This document shows, piece after piece, positions 22,384 through 37,001 of a stretch of DNA of 37,001 nucleotides. This stretch comes from Marinilabilia sp. Lineage in GTDB: Bacteria; Bacteroidota; Bacteroidia; Bacteroidales; Marinilabiliaceae. The number at the start of each line of letters is the position of its first letter. The stretch's first letter is position 1. The stretch covers positions 1 through 37,001 of the forward strand of contig NZ_JADQBH010000303.1 of the NCBI RefSeq assembly GCF_016278715.1, read 5' to 3'. The position numbers and the translations under genes are program-made. The notes beneath the pieces are model-generated. The model was not told the DNA's origin. It ran no database searches and was given only the letters and a program-made list of their open reading frames with translations.

Positions 22384-23181
22384 ATGAGATTTCAAATCAC
22401 TTTTAACCGAACCGGGAAGCAAAAAATGCTTCCAATGGATTATCAATACTACATTAGCGCATGGATTTATAAGGTTTTAAAACAGGCCGACAGTAAATTC
22501 GCGGGGTTTCTGCACGATAAAGGATACGGAGATAGCCCTCACAAACTCTACAAACTTTTTTGCTTTTCCCGGCTAAATTTTGGCAAGCCAACAATGTGGA
22601 AAGAACGCAAACTCTTTGAGATAAAAAGCAATACGCTTAGCCTCAATGTTTCTTTTGATGTTCCCGAAGCAGCCACCACCTTTATTAAGGGCCTTTTTAT
22701 GGAGCAGGACTTTTTTCTGGGTAATCGCTTTAATGGAATTGAAATGAAAGTTACCAATATAGAAGCTTTGCCGGAGCCTCAATTTACTGAAACAATGCAT
22801 TACCGTCTTTTATCTCCATGGGTGGTAGGTTTCAAACCTGAAAACGCCAAACAAGCTCAATACCTCAAACCTGAAGATGAAGGATTTCTTAAACTATCAG
22901 AAAAACACATTCTTGAAAAATACAATAACACCCACCAAGCAGAATTAACTCCCGATATGATCTCCCTAAAACCACTACCCCCTTTTAAAAGAAGTGGTTT
23001 TTTAATTAAACCTGATACTCCTCAACAAACAAGAGTTGTGGGTAACATCTTTGACTTTGAACTGACTGCTCCTGAAATAGTCCATCAAATGCTTTGGAAT
23101 GCAGGAGTGAGTGAGAAAAGTACTTTGGGATTTGGCTGGGTAGAAATAAAGAATGAAAAGAATTTCATCTATTCAAAATAG
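22384..23181 (+). CDS. cas6: CRISPR-associated endoribonuclease Cas6
   Basis: This 265-residue Cas6 cuts the repeat in the pre-crRNA and leaves an 8-nt 5' handle. The N-terminal half contains 'FAGFLHDKGYG', with the likely catalytic His at H44, and 'KLFCFSRLNFG'. The C-terminal half carries the ferredoxin-fold glycine-rich loop 'NAGVSEKSTLGFGWVEIKN' (about 238-256), the family hallmark. The repeat end ATTGAAAT fits the expected handle. The gene opens the cas operon and is 6 nt from cas8b. Its base composition (roughly 40% GC by eye) is nearer to cas1 than to cas8b or cas3. Confidence 0.93.
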   Translation: MRFQITFNRTGKQKMLPMDYQYYISAWIYKVLKQADSKFAGFLHDKGYGDSPHKLYKLFCFSRLNFGKPTMWKERKLFEIKSNTLSLNVSFDVPEAATTFIKGLFMEQDFFLGNRFNGIEMKVTNIEALPEPQFTETMHYRLLSPWVVGFKPENAKQAQYLKPEDEGFLKLSEKHILEKYNNTHQAELTPDMISLKPLPPFKRSGFLIKPDTPQQTRVVGNIFDFELTAPEIVHQMLWNAGVSEKSTLGFGWVEIKNEKNFIYSK

Positions 23182-23187
23182 AAAAAT

Positions 23188-24921
23188 ATGCTAGACACTG
23201 TAATTAAAATAGGTAAACTATACCGCGAAGCACCAAATGCCCATGTTTATCATGAGCAAATAAACAACATTTGGAAAGATGTGGAAGCTTTAGCCAAGAA
23301 AAAGGACAAAGATGGAAATTCAATTGAAACAGTCTTTTATGAACTGCCCGTTATTGAGTTAGGAGATTCTTTTGAATTTAATTTCAACAAAACATCCATC
23401 ATCAAAGATGAAGATAAACAGAAACAACTTCATTATTTAAACTTTAAGACATCAAAAAAAGATGCTGAAAAGCGATATCTTCTTGGAGACATTTGTTACA
23501 GTCATTTCAGAGACAACAAAAATTCATTACAAGAATTTGGAAACTATAGATTATTTGGAAAATGGGAAAGAAAAAGTTCTTTCCAAGGATCGGAAGAAGT
23601 TTCGAAATCAATTGAGAACCTTTTTATTCAGAAATTCAGAAATGAATTTCGTGATAATAAGAGTCGAATTGAAGAGATATTAAAGTCTAAACCTTCTGTA
23701 GTGATTCATTTTAACTTTAATAATAAAAGTTGGTTTGAATTGGATGGCCTGATTGAATCAATTGATAAGATCCTTTCTTCAAATTTGGTAATCCAGGATA
23801 AAAAAACCGGGAAGTTAGTTCTTGACAAATATTTATACAAAACCCTAGGTGGTGTGACACCGGGATTTGGAGATGAAAATAAATACAAGAACAAATTATT
23901 TACTACTGATGAAATAGTAAGCTTAATATATGCGACCCAGGTTTATCAGGAACCAAGAATAAGGATTAATAATGTTGGAATAATAGCACTTCCTCATTCA
24001 AAAAAAATAACTTCACAAGAAATTGTTCAGTTTTTTAATAAAGAAAAGAATACAATAAAGGAGGAAGTTGCAAAAGAAGAAAAGATTTCCACAGAAACTG
24101 ATGATCTTTTTAGGGAGTTTATTCAAAACGATTTTAACGATGCTGTAAAATTCGATATTATTTTTTCGAGTATTCCAAAATCTCCAGCTGGGGTTTACAG
24201 TGATTTAGTTGAAATATCAAATATTGAAAAGAGTTTATTAAAGCAGGTTCATGAAAAAATTAAAAACGTAAAAGTTCAACTTCAGGAACAAGCTCACAAG
24301 GAGTTTCCCAATTCCAAAGCTCCATATAATTTTTCCATTAAGAATAGTTTTTTGAAAATATTGGGCGACTTGACGTCTGATAAAAAGAAATATCAGTTTC
24401 ACTTACTGAAAGTATTACCACAAATCTATTCAGATACTTATTATCAAGACCCGCTATTGCTTCCGGCCCTCATTGGGAAAGTTGAACACAACATTCGCAA
24501 TGGAGGACAATCTTTTAGTACCCTTAAATACGACTTTTACTTTTTAATAAACATTCAAAAAAATGATAATCTTATGAAGATTACAAGCACAAAAAGTTAT
24601 GCCCTTGGCCAGAACCTTGGCATTATGGCACGTCAATTTGCGGCCTGGCGTGATGACTGTCCAATTAAATCGTTCGAAAAATCTTATGTAGGGAACCTCT
24701 CACGCCGGATAACAACGCTCGAAGAATTGGTGAAGTTTGCAGGATTTATAAATGAAAAACTAACCATTCACGAAAGGCTATTTCCGGATGTAAAAAAAGC
24801 GTATTTGGAACTGGTAGAACTTATCCGCGATTTCGAAGGCGAAAAATACAGTAAACATAACTGTGCATTAGGCTTCTTTGAAAGCTATTATGGCAATTTC
24901 CAAAAGCAAGAAAACAAATAA
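23188..24921 (+). CDS. cas8b: Type I-B Cascade large subunit Cas8b (Csh1/TM1802-like)
   Basis: This 577-residue protein is placed by its position between cas6 and cas7 and by its C-terminus, which resembles Cas8b/Csh1 ('YALGQNLGIMARQFAAWRDD', 'EKSYVGNLSRRI', 'ALGFFESYYG'). In Cascade it recognises the PAM and helps open the DNA. The N-terminal part is very divergent and lysine-rich, as is usual for Cas8. I saw no CXXC zinc pairs, which some Cas8b proteins have. GC is about 33% in a sampled N-terminal line and about 43% in a C-terminal line, so the gene may be mosaic. An in-frame ATG at 24574 (Met463) could start a separate 115-residue small subunit. The exact Cas8 subgroup is uncertain. Confidence 0.8.
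   Translation: MLDTVIKIGKLYREAPNAHVYHEQINNIWKDVEALAKKKDKDGNSIETVFYELPVIELGDSFEFNFNKTSIIKDEDKQKQLHYLNFKTSKKDAEKRYLLGDICYSHFRDNKNSLQEFGNYRLFGKWERKSSFQGSEEVSKSIENLFIQKFRNEFRDNKSRIEEILKSKPSVVIHFNFNNKSWFELDGLIESIDKILSSNLVIQDKKTGKLVLDKYLYKTLGGVTPGFGDENKYKNKLFTTDEIVSLIYATQVYQEPRIRINNVGIIALPHSKKITSQEIVQFFNKEKNTIKEEVAKEEKISTETDDLFREFIQNDFNDAVKFDIIFSSIPKSPAGVYSDLVEISNIEKSLLKQVHEKIKNVKVQLQEQAHKEFPNSKAPYNFSIKNSFLKILGDLTSDKKKYQFHLLKVLPQIYSDTYYQDPLLLPALIGKVEHNIRNGGQSFSTLKYDFYFLINIQKNDNLMKITSTKSYALGQNLGIMARQFAAWRDDCPIKSFEKSYVGNLSRRITTLEELVKFAGFINEKLTIHERLFPDVKKAYLELVELIRDFEGEKYSKHNCALGFFESYYGNFQKQENK
24574..24921 (+). CDS. Possible internally translated Cascade small subunit (Cas11-like)
   Basis: An in-frame ATG (Met463 of cas8b) opens a 115-residue helical C-terminal fragment that starts MKITSTKSYALGQNL. 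In several type I-B, I-C and I-D systems the small subunit Cas11 is made from an internal start near the 3' end of cas8 or cas10d, and its size is about 100-130 residues. No separate cas11 gene is present in this operon. The upstream sequence is A-rich but lacks a clear Shine-Dalgarno motif, which is common in Bacteroidota. Confidence 0.4.
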   Translation: MKITSTKSYALGQNLGIMARQFAAWRDDCPIKSFEKSYVGNLSRRITTLEELVKFAGFINEKLTIHERLFPDVKKAYLELVELIRDFEGEKYSKHNCALGFFESYYGNFQKQENK

Positions 24922-24943: not shown

Positions 24944-25885
24944 ATGGCTAACGCAATTGAAAAATCAGAGATTTTATTTCTTTTTGAAAGCAAATATACC
25001 ATTCCTAATGGTGACCCTTTTACGGGGGAACAACGGTACGACGAAGAGACCAAAAGAATTTTGGTTTCTGATGTTAGGATAAAAAGATATGTACGGGACC
25101 ATTTTATTGCCCAGAATTTTTTATCAGAAAATAATGAAAAATATACGGTTTATGTTTTCAATGACCGGTCACAAGTAACCGAAGGGAAAAATGAATCCGG
25201 GGCTTCTGCACGAATGCAGGTATTATGGAATGGGAAAAAGCCTAAGGATAAGAAAGAGATTCCAGAAGCAGCATTGAAGCTAATGCAAAGTTGTATTGAT
25301 GTTCGCTTATTTGGCGGTATTTCTACAGAAAAGGAAGCAGCAGTAAATATAACCGGACCCGTTCAGTTTGCTTTGCTGAATCCGTCTTTGAACAAAGCCG
25401 ACCTCCGGATTCACCAAAACACTTCAGTATTCTCCTCAAGCACTGAAAAATCAAGAGGTGCAATCGGAACAACTACAGTAGTTCCATATGCTATTAATCA
25501 AATTCATGGGTGGATAAATCCATACTCTGCTCAACTAAGCGGACTTAAGTCAGAAGATATTTCGGAACTCTTCTCTGCCATGTGGAAAAGTCTAAACAAT
25601 ATCAACACACGGAGCAAGTCAAATCAAAGCTCGGTCATACTAATCCAAATTGTTTACAACGAACCTGATGACAAACTTTATGGTACAGATTCCTTAATAT
25701 CCATTGAGTCGGAAAAAGAGGAAGAACAAATTCGCTCCATGGAAGATTACTCGTTCAATTTCGAAAAGCTGGCAGAAGCTACCAAATCGCCCAAAGTAAA
25801 GGAGATTCGCTTTTACACGGAAATTGAAGATTTGAAAAAAGTTATATCAGGTCTGGATCCCAAATTTAAAGAAATGGAGTTGTAA
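24944..25885 (+). CDS. cas7: Cascade backbone subunit Cas7 (Csh2-like)
   Basis: This 313-residue protein matches the Cas7/Csh2 family from its first residues: 'EKSEILFLFESKYTIPNGDPFTGEQRYDEETKRILVSDVRIKRYVRDHF'. It continues with 'CIDVRLFGGISTEKEAAVNITGPVQFALLNPS', 'STEKSRGAIGTTTVVPYAI' and 'LFSAMWKSLNNINTRSKSNQ'. Several copies line the crRNA in Cascade. I chose the ATG at 24944, 22 nt past the cas8b stop. An ATG at 24878 is in frame but lies inside cas8b and adds residues with no family likeness. The stop is one base before the cas5 start, so expression is tightly coupled. Confidence 0.94.
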   Translation: MANAIEKSEILFLFESKYTIPNGDPFTGEQRYDEETKRILVSDVRIKRYVRDHFIAQNFLSENNEKYTVYVFNDRSQVTEGKNESGASARMQVLWNGKKPKDKKEIPEAALKLMQSCIDVRLFGGISTEKEAAVNITGPVQFALLNPSLNKADLRIHQNTSVFSSSTEKSRGAIGTTTVVPYAINQIHGWINPYSAQLSGLKSEDISELFSAMWKSLNNINTRSKSNQSSVILIQIVYNEPDDKLYGTDSLISIESEKEEEQIRSMEDYSFNFEKLAEATKSPKVKEIRFYTEIEDLKKVISGLDPKFKEMEL

Positions 25886-25886
25886 T

Positions 25887-26582
25887 ATGGAAGCGATTCT
25901 ATTGGAAATAAAAGGAAAATGGGCTCAGTTCAGGAAAGCCGAGACCAATAACAATCCGCTATCTCACGATTTCATGACTAAAACTGCCTTTATTGGTTTA
26001 CTAGGTGCAGTAATTGGTGTCGAAAGAAATCAAATGCGTCAACACTTTCCCTTACTGTGCGATGGACTTGTCTTTGGCTTGCAAATAAACAACGAAGTAC
26101 AAAAACAATCGTGGGGATTCACCTTTCGCAGTGTAACTCACGCATGGGAAAAAGCCCCAAAGCAAATGGAGTTCATAAAAGATCCCAATTATACAATTTT
26201 GCTCGGGCTAAAGGATGAAGGTTGCAGGGAGCAATTTGAATATTTCCGTGCACATATCAAGGAAGGCAAGGCATGTTATCCTCCGGTTTTAGGGTTGCAT
26301 AATTGTCCGGCAGACATAAAATTTCTTGAAAGCGGTATTATTGAATCGAAACAAGGAAATTTCGAAACTTATGGATTTGTTACAACAGATTATCAACCCA
26401 TAATTGATAACATGAGTGAATTCAGGATTGGATTTGATAAGATTCCTACATTCCAGGATGATAATTTCTGGAACGTTCCTGAAAGATTTGTATCGGTTAC
26501 ATACCCTTCTAACCAGCGAAAACTGCTGGTGTCTGGTGAATTTCATGAATTTAACAAACAAACACAATGGTGTCTGATCTAA
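25887..26582 (+). CDS. cas5: Cascade subunit Cas5 (Cas5h/Cas5b type)
   Basis: This 231-residue protein has the Cas5 N-terminal fold: a first beta strand 'ILLEIKGKWAQFRKAETNNNPLSHDFMTKTAFIGLLGAVIGVER', which corresponds to the 'F(R)...S..vPp.sal.GllgailG' pattern of the family. Cas5 caps the 5' handle of the crRNA and contacts Cas8. The length is normal for the type I-B version. It follows cas7 by one base, and its last 16 nt overlap the start of cas3. Confidence 0.9.
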   Translation: MEAILLEIKGKWAQFRKAETNNNPLSHDFMTKTAFIGLLGAVIGVERNQMRQHFPLLCDGLVFGLQINNEVQKQSWGFTFRSVTHAWEKAPKQMEFIKDPNYTILLGLKDEGCREQFEYFRAHIKEGKACYPPVLGLHNCPADIKFLESGIIESKQGNFETYGFVTTDYQPIIDNMSEFRIGFDKIPTFQDDNFWNVPERFVSVTYPSNQRKLLVSGEFHEFNKQTQWCLI

Positions 26583-28987
26583 ATTTTGAATCACATCCCG
26601 GTAAGCCACTTGAAAAACATATACGGAGGGTACTGCAAGGTACCCTCCATAATTTTTCTTCTCCTATAGCAGAACTGGCAGCACTATTTCATGATATGGG
26701 AAAAATCAATCCCAACTTTCAACAAAAGCTATACGGGAAAACAGCAGGATATAATAACCATTCTTATCTATCTGTTATTGCATTTATTAATTATGCACTT
26801 TCGAACCCATCTGAGATAAAAGAGAAAGCAGGAATAAATACGAATAAAGATTTGGCTTTATTTATTTTCCAGGTTTCGATACTTATAGCGAAACACCATC
26901 AACATTTACCAAATTTTGATTTAGCGTTTTCTGCTTCTGAAGAACTGGAGAATGCAATCACTTTCGCTTTAAAAGAAAACCACCATTTCCCAGTATCAGC
27001 CTTTCTTAAAGAAAAAATGAAAATCAATAGTAAACCATTTGATCTAAATTTTAACAAAAGAAATAAAGGCTTTCTATCGTTTTCAAATAAGTACCATGTA
27101 CCAGCATGGAAAAAAAATCCGTTAAAGTATTTTCTTGACACCCAAATGGGATTTGCAGCCCTGATAGAATCAGACAAGCGTGATGCCGGCAATAATAAGG
27201 ATTACAATTTTAAGGAATCCGTTAAACAGAATACCTTTCAACTGCGCAACTCTCTCGAAGAAAAATTCATCGAATTTGATGCAGTAAGATCAGGCTCAAG
27301 TCTGAATGAGCTAAGAACGAATATTCGTTTAGAGGCAATCAAAGGAACAAGAGAGGGATTAAAAAGAAAAGAACACATCTTTACCCTAACAGCACCTACA
27401 GGAGCCGGAAAGACATTTACCCTGCTTGCCATTGCTGATGAAATAAGAAAACAAAAAGGAGTGTTGGGAATAATATACACACTTCCATTTTTGTCAATAA
27501 CCGAGCAAGTACAAACAATTGCAAAAAATCTTCTGGATGATGTTTTGTCAGTGAATTCAAAGGCGGAAAATCATCGTATTGATATAGCTCAGGAAAACTA
27601 TGAAACAGACCAAAGTCAGGACAATTTATTCAGGGTTTTAAGAGAAGATTTCATCGCAAATACATTTGATCATCCTTTCATCATCACCACGTTTGTTCAG
27701 TTTTTTGAAACCCTTGTAAGCAATAGGAATTCTACTTTGCTAAAACTGCCCAATTTTGCCAATCGTATCCTTTTGATTGATGAAATACAGGCATTACCTC
27801 CACGGTTATACATATTCTTCAGTGCATGGCTTGATGCATTTTGTAAACGTAATAACTCATTTGCGGTATTATCAACCGCAACAATGCCAAATTTTGAAAT
27901 TCCAAAAAAGGAGTATTTAGATTTGGATAAACGTGCCGATTTGCTCTTCAATGAATATGTTGTTCCGAAGGATTTGATTCATTCGCGCAAGTATTTTGAT
28001 GAGGATATCTTTAACCGATACAAAATAAATGTAATCCAAGAATCACTTGATTCAATCAGTCTCTCCAAGTTATTGCTAAGTGAGAAGCAGTCCTGTTTGG
28101 TTATCTTAAATACCATAGATGACACGAAAGAACTGTACAATTTATTGACAGAGGAAACAGCAAATATATTGTTATTGAACACGCATTTCATACCGGATGA
28201 CAGAACGCGAATAATTGAAGAAGCTAAAACCCTTCTTAACTCAGGGGAAAAAGTTTATCTGATTTCCACTCAATTGATTGAGGCTGGAGTTGATATTGAT
28301 TTTCCCATTGTCTATAGAGATTTATGCCCTTTGCCCAGTCTTATTCAGAGTGCGGGACGCTGTAATAGAAACAAAAAAATCCCGATGGGACAGGTGATGT
28401 TTTTCCAACTGGTAAATGAAGAAGGAAGCTCAAGGGCTAATTTGATATATCGGAATGAAGCAAAACATTTTCTTGATTTTTGCAAAACAAATATTTCATC
28501 TGACATAGAAGAAAATAACTTATTTGATGTGCAAAGTAAGTTTTTTGACTCCATTAAAGAAAATCTTAGCATAGGAGACTTCTACCCAAGCAAATATCAT
28601 TCAGAAAACATGATTGAATGTGTAAATAATGCGCGTTTCGAAACTCTTGGACGATTTAAACTGATAACCGAAGAAATAGGTATACAACAGCAATATTACA
28701 TCTCCAAAAATGAAAACGATGATACGTCCGAAGTGCTGAGCTCCCTCCTTGAAGATTTACGAGCCTGCGACAATTATGCAGCAAGTAAAATAATTAAAAT
28801 AAAAATCAATTCATTAATTAAATCCATCAGCGGTCGGATTTTGAATATTCGTGTTAACAATTTCAATAAAGACCAAGTGCCTCAGGTTTTTGATGCTGAA
28901 ATTTTGGGCATTAAATTCATTTCAAAAGATTATTATTCCAAAACAACGGGCCTAAAAGTCGGAAATTCAGAAAACTGCTTTCTATAA
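26567..28987 (+). CDS. cas3: CRISPR-associated HD nuclease-helicase Cas3
   Basis: This 806-residue protein joins an N-terminal HD nuclease to an SF2 helicase. HD residues include H10, H42-D43 in 'LFHDMGK' and the later 'AKHHQHLP'. Helicase motif I is 'TAPTGAGKT' (about 275-283), motif II is 'DEIQALPP' (D405-E406), motif III is 'LSTAT', and motif VI is 'QSAGRCNR'. A Cas3-specific C-terminal domain follows. After Cascade binds the target, Cas3 is recruited, nicks the displaced strand and degrades it 3' to 5'. All key motifs appear intact. The gene overlaps cas5 by 16 nt and cas4 by 1 nt. A sampled line has about 27% GC, lower than in cas1. Confidence 0.96.
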   Translation: MVSDLNFESHPGKPLEKHIRRVLQGTLHNFSSPIAELAALFHDMGKINPNFQQKLYGKTAGYNNHSYLSVIAFINYALSNPSEIKEKAGINTNKDLALFIFQVSILIAKHHQHLPNFDLAFSASEELENAITFALKENHHFPVSAFLKEKMKINSKPFDLNFNKRNKGFLSFSNKYHVPAWKKNPLKYFLDTQMGFAALIESDKRDAGNNKDYNFKESVKQNTFQLRNSLEEKFIEFDAVRSGSSLNELRTNIRLEAIKGTREGLKRKEHIFTLTAPTGAGKTFTLLAIADEIRKQKGVLGIIYTLPFLSITEQVQTIAKNLLDDVLSVNSKAENHRIDIAQENYETDQSQDNLFRVLREDFIANTFDHPFIITTFVQFFETLVSNRNSTLLKLPNFANRILLIDEIQALPPRLYIFFSAWLDAFCKRNNSFAVLSTATMPNFEIPKKEYLDLDKRADLLFNEYVVPKDLIHSRKYFDEDIFNRYKINVIQESLDSISLSKLLLSEKQSCLVILNTIDDTKELYNLLTEETANILLLNTHFIPDDRTRIIEEAKTLLNSGEKVYLISTQLIEAGVDIDFPIVYRDLCPLPSLIQSAGRCNRNKKIPMGQVMFFQLVNEEGSSRANLIYRNEAKHFLDFCKTNISSDIEENNLFDVQSKFFDSIKENLSIGDFYPSKYHSENMIECVNNARFETLGRFKLITEEIGIQQQYYISKNENDDTSEVLSSLLEDLRACDNYAASKIIKIKINSLIKSISGRILNIRVNNFNKDQVPQVFDAEILGIKFISKDYYSKTTGLKVGNSENCFL

Positions 28988-29490
28988 TGCGAGTAACAGG
29001 TACTCTAATATCATATTTTTTTTATTGCCATAGAAGACTATGGTTACATGCCAACGATATCAAACTTGAGGACAACTCAGAAGATGTTTCCATGGGAGTG
29101 CTAATTGAAGAAACTACATATTCTCAACGCTCTGATAAATATAAACAAATTGAATTAGGTCCTGTAAAGATTGACTTCTTCGATTGGCAAAACAAAATCA
29201 TTCATGAAGTAAAAAAATCAAGTAAGTTCCATGAAACCCATATCTGGCAAATCAAATACTACATTTATATAATGGAGAATGCAGGTATTGGAGGAGTAAC
29301 CGGAATGCTAGAATATCCTACCGAGAGAAAAAAAGAGAATGTATTTCTGTCACAACCTGACCGGATATGTATTGATGAATTAAAAAATAAAATCACTCAA
29401 ATAATTCAATCCGAAAAATGTCCTCCGGTACTGAATAGCCACAGGTGTAAAAATTGCGCATACTCTGACTTTTGTTATGCAAAAGAATAG
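28987..29490 (+). CDS. cas4: CRISPR adaptation exonuclease Cas4
   Basis: This 167-residue protein has the Cas4 Fe-S cysteines, C14 in 'SYFFYCHRRLWL' and C154, C157, C163 in 'HRCKNCAYSDFCYAKE'. The PD-(D/E)XK core is D63 in 'VKIDFFDW', E74 and K76 in 'IIHEVKKSSK', and the RecB-type 'QIKYY' (about 89-93). Cas4 works with Cas1-Cas2 to trim prespacers at the PAM and fix their orientation. The ATG overlaps the cas3 stop by one base and cas1 starts 10 nt downstream, so the adaptation genes follow the interference genes without a break. Confidence 0.95.
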   Translation: MRVTGTLISYFFYCHRRLWLHANDIKLEDNSEDVSMGVLIEETTYSQRSDKYKQIELGPVKIDFFDWQNKIIHEVKKSSKFHETHIWQIKYYIYIMENAGIGGVTGMLEYPTERKKENVFLSQPDRICIDELKNKITQIIQSEKCPPVLNSHRCKNCAYSDFCYAKE

Positions 29491-29500
29491 CTCATAAACT

Positions 29501-30505
29501 ATGAAAAAATCTTTTTACCTCTTCAACCCCGGCCGTCTCTCTCGAAAAGACAACACCCTCAAATTCGTTGCTTTTGATGAAGATGGCCATGAACAAAAAC
29601 CGCGCTATTTGCCCATTGAAAATGTGGACGAATTATATGCCTTTGGAGCTCTTGATGCCAATTCGGCCCTTTACAATTTTTTGGGTCAACAACAGATTCC
29701 TGTTCATTTCTTCGATTATTACGAGAACTATACCGGTTCCTTTATGCCCAAAGATAGTTTGTTGAGTGGAAAAGTCCTGATGGCCCAGACAAGGGCACAT
29801 GACAATAGCTCAAAGCGCATAGAACTGGCACGCCTGATTCTGGAAGGCGCGGTTCACAATATGGTTAAAAACCTGAGGTACTACGATAAGCGTGGGAAAG
29901 ACCTGTTACCTGTAATAGAACGCATTGAAGGACATCTTGAGCAATTTAAACATGTAAAAGCCATTGACGAACTAATGGGACTGGAAGGCAATATCCGGCG
30001 CACCTATTACGAAGGGTTTGAATTGATTGTAAATGATTTCAGCATGAGTGGCCGTAGTATGCGTCCGCCACAAAATGAAGTAAATGCCCTGATATCTTTT
30101 GGCAATATGATGTGCTACAGTCAGTGCCTAAGGGCCATTCACCAGACGCAACTCAATCCGGTCATTTCATTTTTGCACACTCCCGGAGAACGGCGCTTTT
30201 CACTTTCACTTGACCTGGCCGAAGTTTTCAAGCCCATTCTGGTAGACCGGGTGGTTTTCAAGGTGCTCAACAAAAGAATTATCGGCCCCAAAGATTTTGA
30301 CGATTCCCTGAACCGCGTGGTCTTAAAAAATGCAGGAAAAAAAGCATTTGTAAAAGCCTTTGAAGATCGTCTTACGGAAACAATTCAACACAGGGCATTA
30401 AACCGTTCCGTCAGTTATAAGCACCTCATCAAGCTGGAATGCTACAAACTGGTAAAACACATTCTGGAAATTGAAGAATACAAACCTTTTAAAATGTGGT
30501 GGTGA
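29501..30505 (+). CDS. cas1: CRISPR integrase Cas1
   Basis: This 334-residue Cas1 is of the type I-B kind. Metal-binding residues are E162 in '[13 protein letters not shown]', H226 in '[12 protein letters not shown]' and E241 in '[11 protein letters not shown]'. The N-terminal beta domain ('[18 protein letters not shown]', '[14 protein letters not shown]') and the helical C-terminus are complete. With Cas2 it inserts new spacers at the leader end of the array downstream. GC is about 43% in a sampled line, higher than in cas3 and cas4. The gene is followed by a 73-nt gap before cas2. Confidence 0.97.
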
Positions 30506-30578: not shown

Positions 30579-30842
30579 ATGTATATCATTCTAATGTACG
30601 ACGTTAACGAAAAGAGAACAGGAAAAATGCTCAGGTTATGCCGTAAATATCTAAGCTGGATACAAAACTCTGTTTTTGAAGGTGAAATATCAGACGTAAA
30701 ACTAAAAGAATTAAAAAACATGGCTGCCATGATTATGGACTATGAAACAGATAGTTTGATTATCTTTAAAACCCGGAATGAAAAATGGCTGGAGAAAGAA
30801 ATAGTTGGTATGGAACGTGCTGAAACAGGCAACTTTCTTTAA
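30579..30842 (+). CDS. cas2: CRISPR adaptation protein Cas2
   Basis: This 87-residue protein has the Cas2 ferredoxin fold: first strand 'MYIILMYDVNEKR' with conserved D8, then 'LRLCRKYLSWIQNSVFEGEIS' and 'DSLIIFKTRNEKWLEKEIVG'. It dimerises and bridges two Cas1 dimers in the integration complex. It is the last cas gene. The leader and array start right after it, and the short 73-nt gap after cas1 has no terminator. Confidence 0.96.
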   Translation: MYIILMYDVNEKRTGKMLRLCRKYLSWIQNSVFEGEISDVKLKELKNMAAMIMDYETDSLIIFKTRNEKWLEKEIVGMERAETGNFL

Positions 30843-31067
30843 CTCGAAATTGTCGAACCCTCCTTTTTCAGATTCTCAGAGAGGAAAATTCTTCTTTTCT
30901 CTTCCCAAAAAGCTCTTTGACATACTGGTTTAGAACAACTTACAATCCGTTGTCGAACAAGGGGCAAAATCCTTTTTTTATACATCGACAATTTTTCTCC
31001 TCAAAACATTGGGTTTCCTGCTTATGAAACCCTTATTTTGGGGAAATATTTTGAGCTTTTTTGACGG
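30843..31067 (+). promoter_or_regulatory. CRISPR leader
   Basis: This AT-rich stretch lies between cas2 and the first repeat. TTGTCGA occurs at 30850-30856, again at 30950-30956 (exactly 100 bp apart), and in inverted form at 30985-30991. An 'AGCTCTTTGACA' block at 30911-30922 is echoed by 'AGCTTTTTTGACG' at 31054-31066, touching the first repeat. TTTGACA could also serve as the -33 part of a promoter. The orientation is set by Cas1/Cas2 upstream and by the repeat 3' end ATTGAAAT. Confidence 0.75.
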
Positions 31068-34000
31068 CTCCCAATCGTACCGTGGTGGAATTGAAATCCC
31101 ATATTGGAAATTGTGTATCGAAAACTCCATTAGCTCCCAATCGTACCGTGGTGGAATTGAAATGAATACTTCGACATCTTAATTACAGTGCCTAAATAAA
31201 CTCCCAATCGTACCGTGGTGGAATTGAAATAAAATGTTTCATGTGAAACTTTAAATTCTTGATTTTACTCCCAATCGTACCGTGGTGGAATTGAAATTAA
31301 ACAGATACTTTAGGATTGACGGAGAAGCGGACGGCCTCCCAATCGTACCGTGGTGGAATTGAAATTACCCTGTTGGCGTGTTCGGGTTGAATATGATAAC
31401 TCCTCCCAATCGTACCGTGGTGGAATTGAAATAAAGTTGACACAGTGATAAAGGTTCAAACTCAAATCACTCCCAATCGTACCGTGGTGGAATTGAAATT
31501 TTCCAAACGTCTTTATGGATTCGTTTCGCCACTTTCTCCCAATCGTACCGTGGTGGAATTGAAATTTAAAATTCAAAGTTTTGCCGGGTTGCAGCTTGGT
31601 CTCCCAATCGTACCGTGGTGGAATTGAAATACAATCCAATCGGGGTGTCCTTCTTTGATGATTCTCTCCCAATCGTACCGTGGTGGAATTGAAATACACG
31701 AACACACACCTACTCAGAGGCCGGGACTTACTCCCAATCGTACCGTGGTGGAATTGAAATTAGGCAGACTAGAAGAAATCAAGGTTCAAAAGCTAACTCC
31801 CAATCGTACCGTGGTGGAATTGAAATTTTATTAGTTCATTCGCTGACTTTGTTTTAAGATAACTCCCAATCGTACCGTGGTGGAATTGAAATCAAATAAT
31901 ATCACACTAATTAAAAATGGCAAAAACACTCCCAATCGTACCGTGGTGGAATTGAAATAAAGAAAACAATATGAGCTACAATGGTGTAAAGAAGCTCCCA
32001 ATCGTACCGTGGTGGAATTGAAATATGGTAAGAGATTTTGAACTTCGCAACCTTGATACAGCTCCCAATCGTACCGTGGTGGAATTGAAATTTATTGTTC
32101 AAAATCCACCAGAAATAACATTTTCTCAACTCCCAATCGTACCGTGGTGGAATTGAAATAAACAAAAAACTTACACTCATTTAAAAGGTTTAGGAACTCC
32201 CAATCGTACCGTGGTGGAATTGAAATATGAAAAAGAGTGGTTCTAAAAGAAGAGCAGGATTTACTCCCAATCGTACCGTGGTGGAATTGAAATATATGTA
32301 ACCGGGTTTAGTAAAGAGAATTTACCGGCTCCCAATCGTACCGTGGTGGAATTGAAATAATTTATTCTGGAAAAGATAATTGGAAGAATGGTATGCTCCC
32401 AATCGTACCGTGGTGGAATTGAAATACAAGTATCTTCACTTTCAGACATAAAGAAGTTTACTCCCAATCGTACCGTGGTGGAATTGAAATACAATTGTTT
32501 CATCTGGCAATGTATCTGCATCTTTCTCCCAATCGTACCGTGGTGGAATTGAAATCGGTGTTGCATTTAACTCATCTGCTCATAGGGAACTCCCAATCGT
32601 ACCGTGGTGGAATTGAAATCTGGAAGAGTGGCAAGAAAAGAAATCTTTGGAAGCTCCCAATCGTACCGTGGTGGAATTGAAATCAAGTTGCCCGGAGTGG
32701 TCAAGATAAAGATGGAGATCTCCCAATCGTACCGTGGTGGAATTGAAATACAGCTAAATTTAACCAATTAAGGCCGGGTAAGTTGCTCCCAATCGTACCG
32801 TGGTGGAATTGAAATAATTGTTTCTTTGCTCTTTGTATTTCATCTTCCAGCTCCCAATCGTACCGTGGTGGAATTGAAATAAGTTAGGTGATGATCAATT
32901 AGGTTTTACTTTAGGTCTCCCAATCGTACCGTGGTGGAATTGAAATGAAGAAGATGGTAAATTAGCCACAGTAGAACTTGAACTCCCAATCGTACCGTGG
33001 TGGAATTGAAATGTTGTTACGTCATCGTTCAGCAACTTTTCAGGAATCTCCCAATCGTACCGTGGTGGAATTGAAATATCTTTCAAGAAAGGATTTACAG
33101 TAGCCAATAGTCCCTCCCAATCGTACCGTGGTGGAATTGAAATCAACAAGAAGGTAAGAGGATTGAAACGTCAACTACTCCCAATCGTACCGTGGTGGAA
33201 TTGAAATTCAGTAAGACCGCTTGTAGATAGTGGACAATTTGAAACTCCCAATCGTACCGTGGTGGAATTGAAATGACTGCCGAAGAGGGAGTATGGGAGT
33301 TGATCAACCTCCCAATCGTACCGTGGTGGAATTGAAATATGTGATGCAATTCACCGGTAAGTGGAGAGAGTCTCTCCCAATCGTACCGTGGTGGAATTGA
33401 AATAAAACACCAGTCTTTCAATTCGTGACCGGGCAGCTGGCTCCCAATCGTACCGTGGTGGAATTGAAATAGTTCAAGCAGGCTGCGGGGCCAATAGCCG
33501 AGAAGCTCCCAATCGTACCGTGGTGGAATTGAAATTAAATAAGTCGGCAGACGGATTAGCCGCGCCGTTCTCTCCCAATCGTACCGTGGTGGAATTGAAA
33601 TGACCTCACCACCACCGTCATGCCCCTCTTTATTCACTCCCAATCGTACCGTGGTGGAATTGAAATCCATTTGGTCAATAACTTTAAGGACGGCCTGATG
33701 CTCCCAATCGTACCGTGGTGGAATTGAAATCCGTGTGGTGCGAAAGGGCAATAACCAACATGTTCCTCCCAATCGTACCGTGGTGGAATTGAAATAACTC
33801 TGAGATCTGCTTTGCCCTGATGATTAATCCCTCCCAATCGTACCGTGGTGGAATTGAAATAAACTTGAAATAAACAAAAAGCGCAAATGGGGTAAGCTCC
33901 CAATCGTACCGTGGTGGAATTGAAATCCACTTGGTCAATAACTTTAAGGACGGCCTGATGAAACTCCCAATCGTACCGTGGTGGAATTGAAATACAGCCG

Positions 34001-37000
34001 TAAGGTGACTGCTGACATGGAGCGTCTTACTCCCAATCGTACCGTGGTGGAATTGAAATCATCAATACCAAGTCGGGCACCGATCGTATTACCCTCCCAA
34101 TCGTACCGTGGTGGAATTGAAATTCCCGTTAAGTCGCTTAATGTCATCACCGGTTTTATTCTCCCAATCGTACCGTGGTGGAATTGAAATACATTGAAGT
34201 TCACCGAAATTATGAGAAGATAATCACTCCCAATCGTACCGTGGTGGAATTGAAATTGAAGTTGGCCGGCATTACCTTCTTTCAGAAGATGCTCCCAATC
34301 GTACCGTGGTGGAATTGAAATAAAAATGGGAGGCACTTCAGCAATTAGACGTTATACTCCCAATCGTACCGTGGTGGAATTGAAATGTAATTGTATTCTC
34401 ACGCCGCTTTTTCATATTGAACTCCCAATCGTACCGTGGTGGAATTGAAATATTGATCGTATCAACGATGACATTGTTGAAATAACTCCCAATCGTACCG
34501 TGGTGGAATTGAAATTCTTTAACAACTGGCTGGTGCCTCTGGCTGCATTTGACTCCCAATCGTACCGTGGTGGAATTGAAATACCAGCACCGTAGTCGAT
34601 GACGGGGACATCATTCTCTCCCAATCGTACCGTGGTGGAATTGAAATTACCAAAGATTACACAAAAAAAGATTGGGATTTAGGCTCCCAATCGTACCGTG
34701 GTGGAATTGAAATCTTAGGAAGTGGTGGGGTGGCAATTGCTTGTTATGACCTCCCAATCGTACCGTGGTGGAATTGAAATATCCAACCTCCGTTTTCGTT
34801 GTGTAAACATTCAGGCTCCCAATCGTACCGTGGTGGAATTGAAATACCGATTTACTTGCAGAAATTACTAACGGTGAAAAGCTCCCAATCGTACCGTGGT
34901 GGAATTGAAATTTTTAAAGAAGATAAGGCTAACAAATTGGCAAAGATCTCCCAATCGTACCGTGGTGGAATTGAAATAGTGGAAGTACAGGTAACAGTTA
35001 CGCTTTAATTGGCTCCCAATCGTACCGTGGTGGAATTGAAATTCTTTAAAAGCCGTTGTTCTGGACTACAATAGTGGACTCCCAATCGTACCGTGGTGGA
35101 ATTGAAATAAGACCCGGAAATTTCGAATTGTAGTTCTCTAAGTCTCCCAATCGTACCGTGGTGGAATTGAAATTCCAAAATGACCGGGCTAATTACTGGG
35201 TAAGGAACTCCCAATCGTACCGTGGTGGAATTGAAATAATCATTTTCAACACCGGGGTTTGTACCCGGCCACTCCCAATCGTACCGTGGTGGAATTGAAA
35301 TGACCCTTTCTGTAAAAGGACATAATCCCGGAGTGGACTCCCAATCGTACCGTGGTGGAATTGAAATATGATATAAATGAAACGATTTCAAAGTGTGTTT
35401 CTTGCTCCCAATCGTACCGTGGTGGAATTGAAATATAAACGGAAATACTTCATGGCAAGAAACACACTTTCTCCCAATCGTACCGTGGTGGAATTGAAAT
35501 CAAAATTGTAAAGAACTATTTAAACAGACCATTGTCTCCCAATCGTACCGTGGTGGAATTGAAATATTTTCAGCGAGCTTCCTAAAGACGTAAAAATCAA
35601 CTCCCAATCGTACCGTGGTGGAATTGAAATCACTTCGTGTCTTTTGACGGGCAATTGACAATATTCTCCCAATCGTACCGTGGTGGAATTGAAATCAGAC
35701 AAAACGAGATATGGAAAAACAAGCAAGATCTCCCAATCGTACCGTGGTGGAATTGAAATGCGTTATTCTCTTCTTCCTTGATCTGCTCCATTTCCCTCCC
35801 AATCGTACCGTGGTGGAATTGAAATATGCAAACCATGCTTGGTAGTAAATCCGAAGCGGACCTCCCAATCGTACCGTGGTGGAATTGAAATCCCGTTTTT
35901 GTTGAGCCGATGTGATTTTAGACCGTGCTCCCAATCGTACCGTGGTGGAATTGAAATTTCCTGATGATAACCGCCGCGCAAGTTGTTTTCGCTCCCAATC
36001 GTACCGTGGTGGAATTGAAATTCAATATGAAGCCTTGCTCCACTATCAGAAGTCAGACTCCCAATCGTACCGTGGTGGAATTGAAATTAAAAATATCAGC
36101 CCCATTTAACCCTAATTCGTTTTTCTCCCAATCGTACCGTGGTGGAATTGAAATTCCTCAAATGCCGAAACAAGAGCGTTCCTTAAATCTCCCAATCGTA
36201 CCGTGGTGGAATTGAAATAAGAGGGCGCAACACGCTCAGTAATTCGTGAACGCTCCCAATCGTACCGTGGTGGAATTGAAATCCTCCCTGAAGGATGGCG
36301 GTTTTCCCGGTGTTCTGGCTCCCAATCGTACCGTGGTGGAATTGAAATCACTTTGTCAATGAGAATGATAGTATAAAGGAATACTCCCAATCGTACCGTG
36401 GTGGAATTGAAATATGGTGGAAAACATGGCTATTGCTAATGGTAAGAACTCCCAATCGTACCGTGGTGGAATTGAAATTCGTTTACTCGGATTTCAGGAA
36501 TTCAAGAATCTGCTCCCAATCGTACCGTGGTGGAATTGAAATTACAAGCAGTACAAGGCCACATCAGGCGAAAAAGTACTCCCAATCGTACCGTGGTGGA
36601 ATTGAAATTGAGAATAAAGAACCTTTGCTTGAACAATTTCAGTCTCCCAATCGTACCGTGGTGGAATTGAAATTTCCTGTTCTTTCCCGGCGAAGAATAT
36701 CACGACCTTCTCCCAATCGTACCGTGGTGGAATTGAAATATCCAAGACCGTCAACTGCCGACAAGTCGATATCGCTCCCAATCGTACCGTGGTGGAATTG
36801 AAATCCTTCTACCGCCGCGTTGAATCTGGAACCATACCCGTCTCCCAATCGTACCGTGGTGGAATTGAAATAAACTTATATATAACGAATGTGGAGACCA
36901 TGGCGACTCCCAATCGTACCGTGGTGGAATTGAAATCAATTGCCGGAAGAGTATCAGACAAAAAAAAAGAATCTCCCAATCGTACCGTGGTGGAATTGAA

Positions 37001-37001
37001 A
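31068..37001 (+). CRISPR. Type I-B CRISPR array, 91 repeats, open at the right edge
   Basis: A 30-nt repeat beginning CTCCCAATCG, with TACCGTGGTG in the middle and GAATTGAAAT at the end, recurs with a period of 64-68 bp. By hand count there are 91 copies; the last, at 36973, lacks only its final base because the window ends. There are 90 spacers of about 34-38 nt. All repeats read as identical, with no decayed trailer-end copies, so the true end lies beyond the window. The last eight bases match the usual type I-B crRNA handle. Transcription runs from the leader on the plus strand. Spacers 40 and 44 are near duplicates, and spacers 66 and 67 overlap on opposite strands. Confidence 0.99.

Follow-up and report, generated by a model that had tools for sequence, protein, structure and literature searches.

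Spacers 40 and 44 of the CRISPR array carried by the window (the whole 37,001-nt stretch of DNA analysed, which is the entire contig C220) are best explained as two separate captures at one PAM-defined site, which would lie within the gene for the MuA-like transposase in Mu-like Bacteroidota phages; we put the probability of this reading at roughly 0.84. The kind of event is already known, and the pair is a clear case of it. The first-pass annotation had argued that variants of a single virus lineage were captured independently at the same PAM. That is supported as the best reading and the annotation holds in its main point; beyond confirming it, we correct the coding frame, identify the virus group and propose a PAM. 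It may be noted that neither this array nor any same-site pair directed at a Mu-like transposase is described in the literature searched, drawn largely from outside subscription journals and in the portions available.

The type I-B locus and its array

The array is preceded by a run of cas genes on the same strand, as follows:

22384..23181, + strand, cas6 (Cas6b); PADLOC Cas6b, 1e-69
23188..24921, + strand, cas8b1; PADLOC Cas8b1 PDLC01107, E 2e-74, with no Pfam or NCBIfam match
24944..25885, + strand, cas7 (Csh2); PADLOC Cas7b, 3e-52
25887..26582, + strand, cas5b; PADLOC Cas5b, 2e-25
26567..28987, + strand, cas3; PADLOC Cas3b, 6e-133
28987..29490, + strand, cas4; PADLOC Cas4b, 2e-60
29501..30505, + strand, cas1b; PADLOC Cas1b, 4e-163
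30579..30842, + strand, cas2; PADLOC Cas2b, 3e-41
30843..31067, + strand, presumed leader, so called from its position between cas2 and the first repeat
31068..37001, + strand, CRISPR array with the 30-nt repeat CTCCCAATCGTACCGTGGTGGAATTGAAAT; 90 exact copies and a final copy cut by the contig end, 90 spacers

With Cas8b, Cas7, Cas5, Cas6, Cas3, Cas4, Cas1 and Cas2 all present among the predicted proteins, the CRISPR-Cas system beside the array is, on gene content, of type I-B. The order cas6-cas8b-cas7-cas5-cas3-cas4-cas1-cas2 with the array adjoining is like that of type I-B systems with Cas4 (the Cas8b1 kind). Also, TIGR02590 and TIGR03641 scored above cut-off and TIGR02592 (Cas5h) below it, with 63 of 97 bits.

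The last repeat of the window is short of one base and the array reaches the contig end. On the minus strand of another contig of the same genome, C33, 61 further repeats start at the contig end and enclose 60 complete spacers and 1 cut one (numbered here with the prefix c); they are probably the far part of the window array, to which we would join them. The C33 array stops 170 bases short of a reading frame of 446 codons (counted as far as the first stop or the edge of the available sequence), which we take to have a phoH-like look. Since the genome (4.95 Mb) is in 326 contigs and may be a mixture, the spacer order rests on the assembly. The set of 151 used throughout combines the 90 spacers of C220 with the 60 complete ones of C33 and the cut one at the end of that contig; in it, 22 spacers are of 34 nt, 49 of 35 nt, 48 of 36 nt, 28 of 37 nt and 4 of 38 nt. 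The sole substituted repeat of the 151 complete ones lies at C33 13480-13509, within locus L009 (G000:C33:6000-14468). Neighbouring arrays with similar repeats were seen in G031 and G027.

The near-duplicate pair and how it may have arisen

The two spacers under study are the following:

33667..33700, + strand, spacer 40, 34 nt, T version; forward frame 2 reads HLVNNFKDGLM
33927..33963, + strand, spacer 44, 37 nt, C version; forward frame 2 reads HLVNNFKDGLMK

They have a common 5′ end, and the sole differences between them are base 4 (T or C) and the 3′ AAA of spacer 44. The first-pass annotation had given these differences, together with the coordinates and lengths, exactly, and its spacer numbers are right when counted from the cas2 side with the first repeat at 31068. 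Neither length, 34 or 37 nt, is unusual for the array. In the all-vs-all comparison of the 151 spacers the pair has E = 1e-13, far above chance, and the remaining pairs with E of 0.02 or less are c8/c11 (34 nt), s66/s67 (15 nt, opposite strands) and c27/s48 (12 nt, E 0.006). Spacers c8 (C33 13903-13938, 36 nt) and c11 (C33 13706-13739, 34 nt), with two other spacers between them in locus L009, are the same over 34 nt from a common 5′ end, c8 being 2 nt longer at its 3′ end. The same 5′ end with a ragged 3′ end is therefore seen in 2 of the 2 near-duplicate pairs that lie on one strand. A search of IMG/VR by degenerate peptide gave no match for the target of c8/c11. The adjacent spacers 66 (35368-35404) and 67 (35435-35470) overlap by 15 nt at their 3′ ends on opposite strands, as if captured from one DNA stretch in converging directions. 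If polarity is read from cas2 and the presumed leader at the left, spacer 40 would be the newer of the pair and spacer 44 the older.

Long arrays are hard for short-read assembly and the contig ends inside a repeat, so that one copy might be put down to an assembly error. But the copies carry two differences of different kind and have differing flanking spacers, and an assembler would presumably sooner collapse two such copies than invent one; we find this origin hardly credible. A separately captured version could have come in from a sister strain by recombination between arrays, and this too would yield two versions with different 3′ ends. However, three unrelated spacers lie between 40 and 44, no neighbour of either is repeated, and two captures are still presumed, which leaves recombination very improbable.

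A third alternative is that a repeat-spacer unit was duplicated inside the array and then mutated. In its available portion PMC11472070, which reviews spacer duplications and repeated acquisitions, describes duplication via replication misalignment and calls multiple independent acquisitions of one spacer rare. Such a history would nevertheless require one unit to have acquired both a substitution and, precisely where spacer meets repeat, a change of 3 nt, in an array whose repeats are near-invariant. The 151 complete repeats (4530 nt) hold one substitution, at which rate the chance of at least one substitution per 34 nt is 0.0075, and drift of a duplicated unit is thus unlikely. Also, a copied unit would keep its length, while both near-duplicate pairs differ precisely at the non-PAM end, and the c8/c11 pair would need a second border change. 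Conversion could keep the repeats alike, which weakens the argument from their invariance; all the same we regard duplication as improbable.

The target gene

All 12 of the 12 residues of HLVNNFKDGLMK are identical to the MuA-like transposase of the IMG/VR contig L013, with 6 nt mismatches across all 37 positions. When IMG/VR was scanned degenerately with the first 11 residues, L013 was the single contig returned. Its target gene encodes 677 aa and matches phrog_310 (transposase), and the contig also has Mu portal and Mu F genes. The source of L013 is sample 3300040801, a number that occurs in PMC8605020, on brackish microbial mats of the Etang de Berre.

Against the transposase the forward-frame peptides score 60 (spacer 40) and 65 (spacer 44), as compared with a shuffled-peptide maximum of 42. 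The first-pass annotation had read the SNP as a silent Lys change in the reverse frame IRPSLKLLTKW; its arithmetic is right, but the coding frame of the target is the forward one. Tried as coding, the reverse frame does have a match in L052 (44 for spacer 40, 42 for spacer 44), in an antisense frame overlapping the transposase gene, but the forward frame scores higher. Read in the frame assigned by this homology, the base-4 SNP is a silent change of a His codon, CAT/CAC. At the homologous site the codon is CAC in 82, CAT in 40 and TTT in 1 of 123 distinct site contexts taken from 189 hits, many of them related.

The closest phage sites have 6 mismatches (L013 for both spacers, L163 for spacer 40), followed by 9 in L152-L154 and L237, and no exact protospacer of either spacer was found on a Mu-like phage. 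By BLAST, spacer 40 reaches 38.0 bits and spacer 44 reaches 44.4 bits, where reversed and complemented spacer controls (the same comparison on the two strands) give at most 34.9 bits. No protospacer of the two spacers came up when IMG/VR was searched with the exact pattern (base 4 set to N), the GTDB 220 species genomes with the degenerate peptide, or 394 other genomes of the class with up to 3 mismatches allowed, and the genome itself has just the two spacers and no protospacer outside the array. INPHARED was compared with the window array (E up to 10) and the C33 array (E up to 0.5), and the best E values, 0.1 and 0.3, were taken as chance. A phage pair with both exact SNP versions and a shared 5′ PAM, for which the first-pass annotation had suggested looking, did not turn up in the collections searched. 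Since neither spacer has an exact protospacer in these collections, both source phage variants are ones that we infer.

A tblastn search of INPHARED with the L013 transposase gave 38 records, all below 60% identity; among the 30 matches listed, many are annotated as transposase and some as MuA-like. With the same protein (E 1e-20), 7 of 71 genomes of the family have matches, and there are none in the host's own genome or in 4 congeners. Comparison of solved structures with the transposase alignment gave none at E 1.

Other spacers against Mu-like phages

An alignment (A1) of 9 transposases was used for profile scans, of which the best 80 of 109 genome loci and the best 80 of 232 IMG/VR loci were taken. 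The 151 spacers were compared ungapped with L013 and L026-L222, and later with a 32.6-kb contig, L237/L238 (IMGVR_UViG_3300033692_000021). Besides 40 and 44, 9 of the 151 spacers match Mu-like contigs with 0-3 mismatches, and 6 of these 9 lie within spacers 35-45:

33339..33373, + strand, spacer 35; 0 mismatches in the ATPase gene (phrog_6891) of L154 and L237, 11 in L152
33404..33440, + strand, spacer 36; 2 mismatches in the MuB-like ATPase gene (phrog_296) of L154 and L237
33471..33505, + strand, spacer 37; 2 mismatches in the Mu F-like gene of L237
33602..33636, + strand, spacer 39; 2 mismatches in the L173/L174 transposase gene, 8-9 in L152-L154 and L237
33731..33765, + strand, spacer 41; 2 mismatches in L152/L153 and 3 in L154/L237, in a 130-aa early ORF
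33994..34029, + strand, spacer 45; 0 mismatches in the MuA-like transposase gene of L152/L153, 2 in L154/L237
C33, spacer c7; 0 mismatches in the Gp36 gene of L237
C33, spacer c26; 1 mismatch in the DUF3164 gene of L152, L153, L154 and L237
C33, spacer c4; 2 mismatches in the large terminase gene of L237

Against L013 and L026-L222 the reversed-spacer control gave nothing below 8 mismatches (one at 8, two at 9). The L237/L238 comparison was run without a reversed control, and the next best match there has 9 mismatches. A weak match of c26 in the transposase genes of L046 and L050 (80% over 30 nt) was superseded by its 1-mismatch match in the DUF3164 gene. Of the host's spacers, eight match the long Mu-like contig L237/L238 with no more than 3 mismatches. 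L152 and L153 show no difference over their shared 10.9 kb, and L154 is 93.9% identical to them. Spacer 45 has its exact match in L152/L153 and spacer 35 in L154/L237; array neighbours therefore record different variants of one phage.

In the window the Mu-type set comprises 8 of the 90 spacers, all in 35-45 (s40/s44 counted by peptide; 38, 42 and 43 excluded). For one fixed 11-spacer stretch the hypergeometric P of this clustering is 2e-9, or 2e-7 when multiplied by 80 stretches, the stretch having been picked after seeing the data. For spacers 42 and 43 every match has 10 mismatches or more. Outside the stretch, the peptide of spacer 14 (31959-31994), KENNMSYNGVKK, is like a frame of 78 aa in L237 (score 46, as against at most 41 for shuffled peptides), and spacer 14 is possibly a further Mu-type spacer. 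A scan of the late region via the portal gave 9 loci, in which the best spacer match, 20 nt at 95% with E 0.002 (c32, L230), was taken as chance.

L237 carries phrog_310 and phrog_296, and in its late part PF06074 (Mu portal), PF04233 (F) and PF07030 (Gp36). Judged by these predicted genes, the target is a Mu-like transposable phage, with transposase A and ATPase B at one end and portal, F and Gp36 late, and the s40/s44 site falls in the homologous gene of L013. DUF935 we take to be the Mu portal family. The targets are like the fF4 kind (Flavobacterium columnare) in that they carry a transposase, two ATPases, DUF3164, a Mu portal and a terminase, but unlike fF4 they are uncultured contigs, and the likeness is one of gene content. 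The available portion of PMC7761591, which also treats CRISPR spacers, gives Bacteroidota Mu-like phages a transposase, one or two ATPases, DUF3164, DUF935 and a terminase.

PAM and strand

GCA precedes 4 of the 4 protospacers with 0-1 mismatch (s35, s45, c26 and c7). The flanks of the other five are GCT (s36), GCC (c4), GCG/GCA (s41), TCA (s39) and GTA (s37), and GC stands at -3/-2 in 7 of the 9 Mu-type protospacers. GCA, as read from L152, L153, L154 and L237, is thus the apparent PAM of the I-B system here. The I-B PAMs tabulated in PMC8482600 are CCA, CCN, CCT, TAC, TCA, TCN, TTA, TTC, TTN, TTTA and TTG, and unlike these GCA is absent from that table passage, though it comes here from one array and few protospacers.

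That a 5′ PAM fixes the 5′ end of the spacer holds for the array, and we extend it to the s40/s44 site from neighbours and homologues. The homologous site is preceded by GCA in 52, ACA in 31, GAA in 20, AAA in 18, AAC in 1 and GAC in 1 of the 123 distinct, non-independent contexts; the flank is CA where the preceding residue is His and AA where it is Asn. L013, the closest phage, has GAA before the site, and 38 of the 123 contexts read GAA or AAA. From the array flanks and the homologous contexts, GCA or NCA would therefore be expected before both sources.

With s40/s44 taken by peptide as one site, the spacer equals the coding strand at all 10 mapped sites, on either genome strand. In the phage frames used, GCA is only a little more frequent on the sense strand (443 to 360), and the chance of 10 out of 10 at that rate is 0.003. 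Spacer 38 may have a weak antisense match to the phage repressor (score 38), which would make it 10 of 11 if counted. By codon scoring 99 of the 151 spacers are called sense (binomial P 0.00016); the method gets 80% of known genes right, it miscalled s39 and s40, and base composition could imitate the array-wide excess. The numbers are small, and a possible coding-strand preference is noted rather than claimed. The slight preference of I-B systems in the available portion of PMC8482600 (55% targeting the coding strand) is opposite to the excess here.

Two probable captures and the question of escape

Under the two-capture reading the window's own type I-B adaptation machinery would have captured the site twice, spacer 44 first and spacer 40 later, and the base-4 difference would stand for two phage variants with the silent His codons CAC and CAT. 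The 5′ ends would be the same because the PAM (GCA, from the other spacers) fixes that end, and loose trimming of the non-PAM end, in an array with spacers of 34-38 nt, would account for the differing 3′ ends. L237/L238 have 1233 GCA places on both strands, from which about 0.04 coincident pairs are expected for about 11 spacers (55/1233, equal places); a favoured site or priming is therefore likely to have driven the second capture. Since CAC and CAT are both common at the site, ordinary phage variation explains the base-4 change without CRISPR selection.

A special case of the two-capture explanation is that the silent His change at seed base 4 let the phage escape spacer 44, and that the mismatched crRNA then primed acquisitions including spacer 40. 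Base 4 lies at the PAM-proximal end, within what we take to be the seed (exact positions assumed), so that escape and update is possible. Of the two versions, T lies closer to the presumed leader, and spacers 41 and 45 have matches in phages of the same type. Haloarcula hispanica has a CRISPR system of type I-B. It acquires spacers by priming according to the available portion of PMC3936756, and PMC10011333, likewise in its available portion, reviews seed and PAM escape and priming. Against this, C/T at the His codon is common standing variation (CAC and CAT being the two frequent codons of the 123 contexts), 7 of 34 positions would count as seed by chance, neither exact version was found in any phage of the collections searched, and two of the spacers between the pair, 42 and 43, lack a Mu-type match. 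The clustering of Mu-type spacers bears on priming, but the order of events is not readable from the cluster. We hold escape and update only tentatively, as the less likely course. The fuller story, in which the array recorded a whole turn of an arms race (44 captured, a silent seed escape where the protein allows little else, and the site re-captured as 40, with a GCA PAM and a coding-strand preference), we regard as doubtful.

Implications

Imprecise acquisition during priming is said to have been described by Jackson in 2019. The pair is like cases of re-capture or primed update of CRISPR memory in that the two spacers share the site and the PAM end, with the presumably newer copy nearer the presumed leader. 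Unlike studies of such updating, it comes from a natural array, without a time series and with the exact sources not found. In the available portion of PMC6452263, Sulfolobus islandicus spacers that perfectly match rod-shaped viruses are on average closer to the leader than mismatched ones. The present analysis links this long I-B array from nature with a particular group of phages and gives a testable PAM, and its two same-site pairs allow one to test in real populations whether old spacers are updated after escape.
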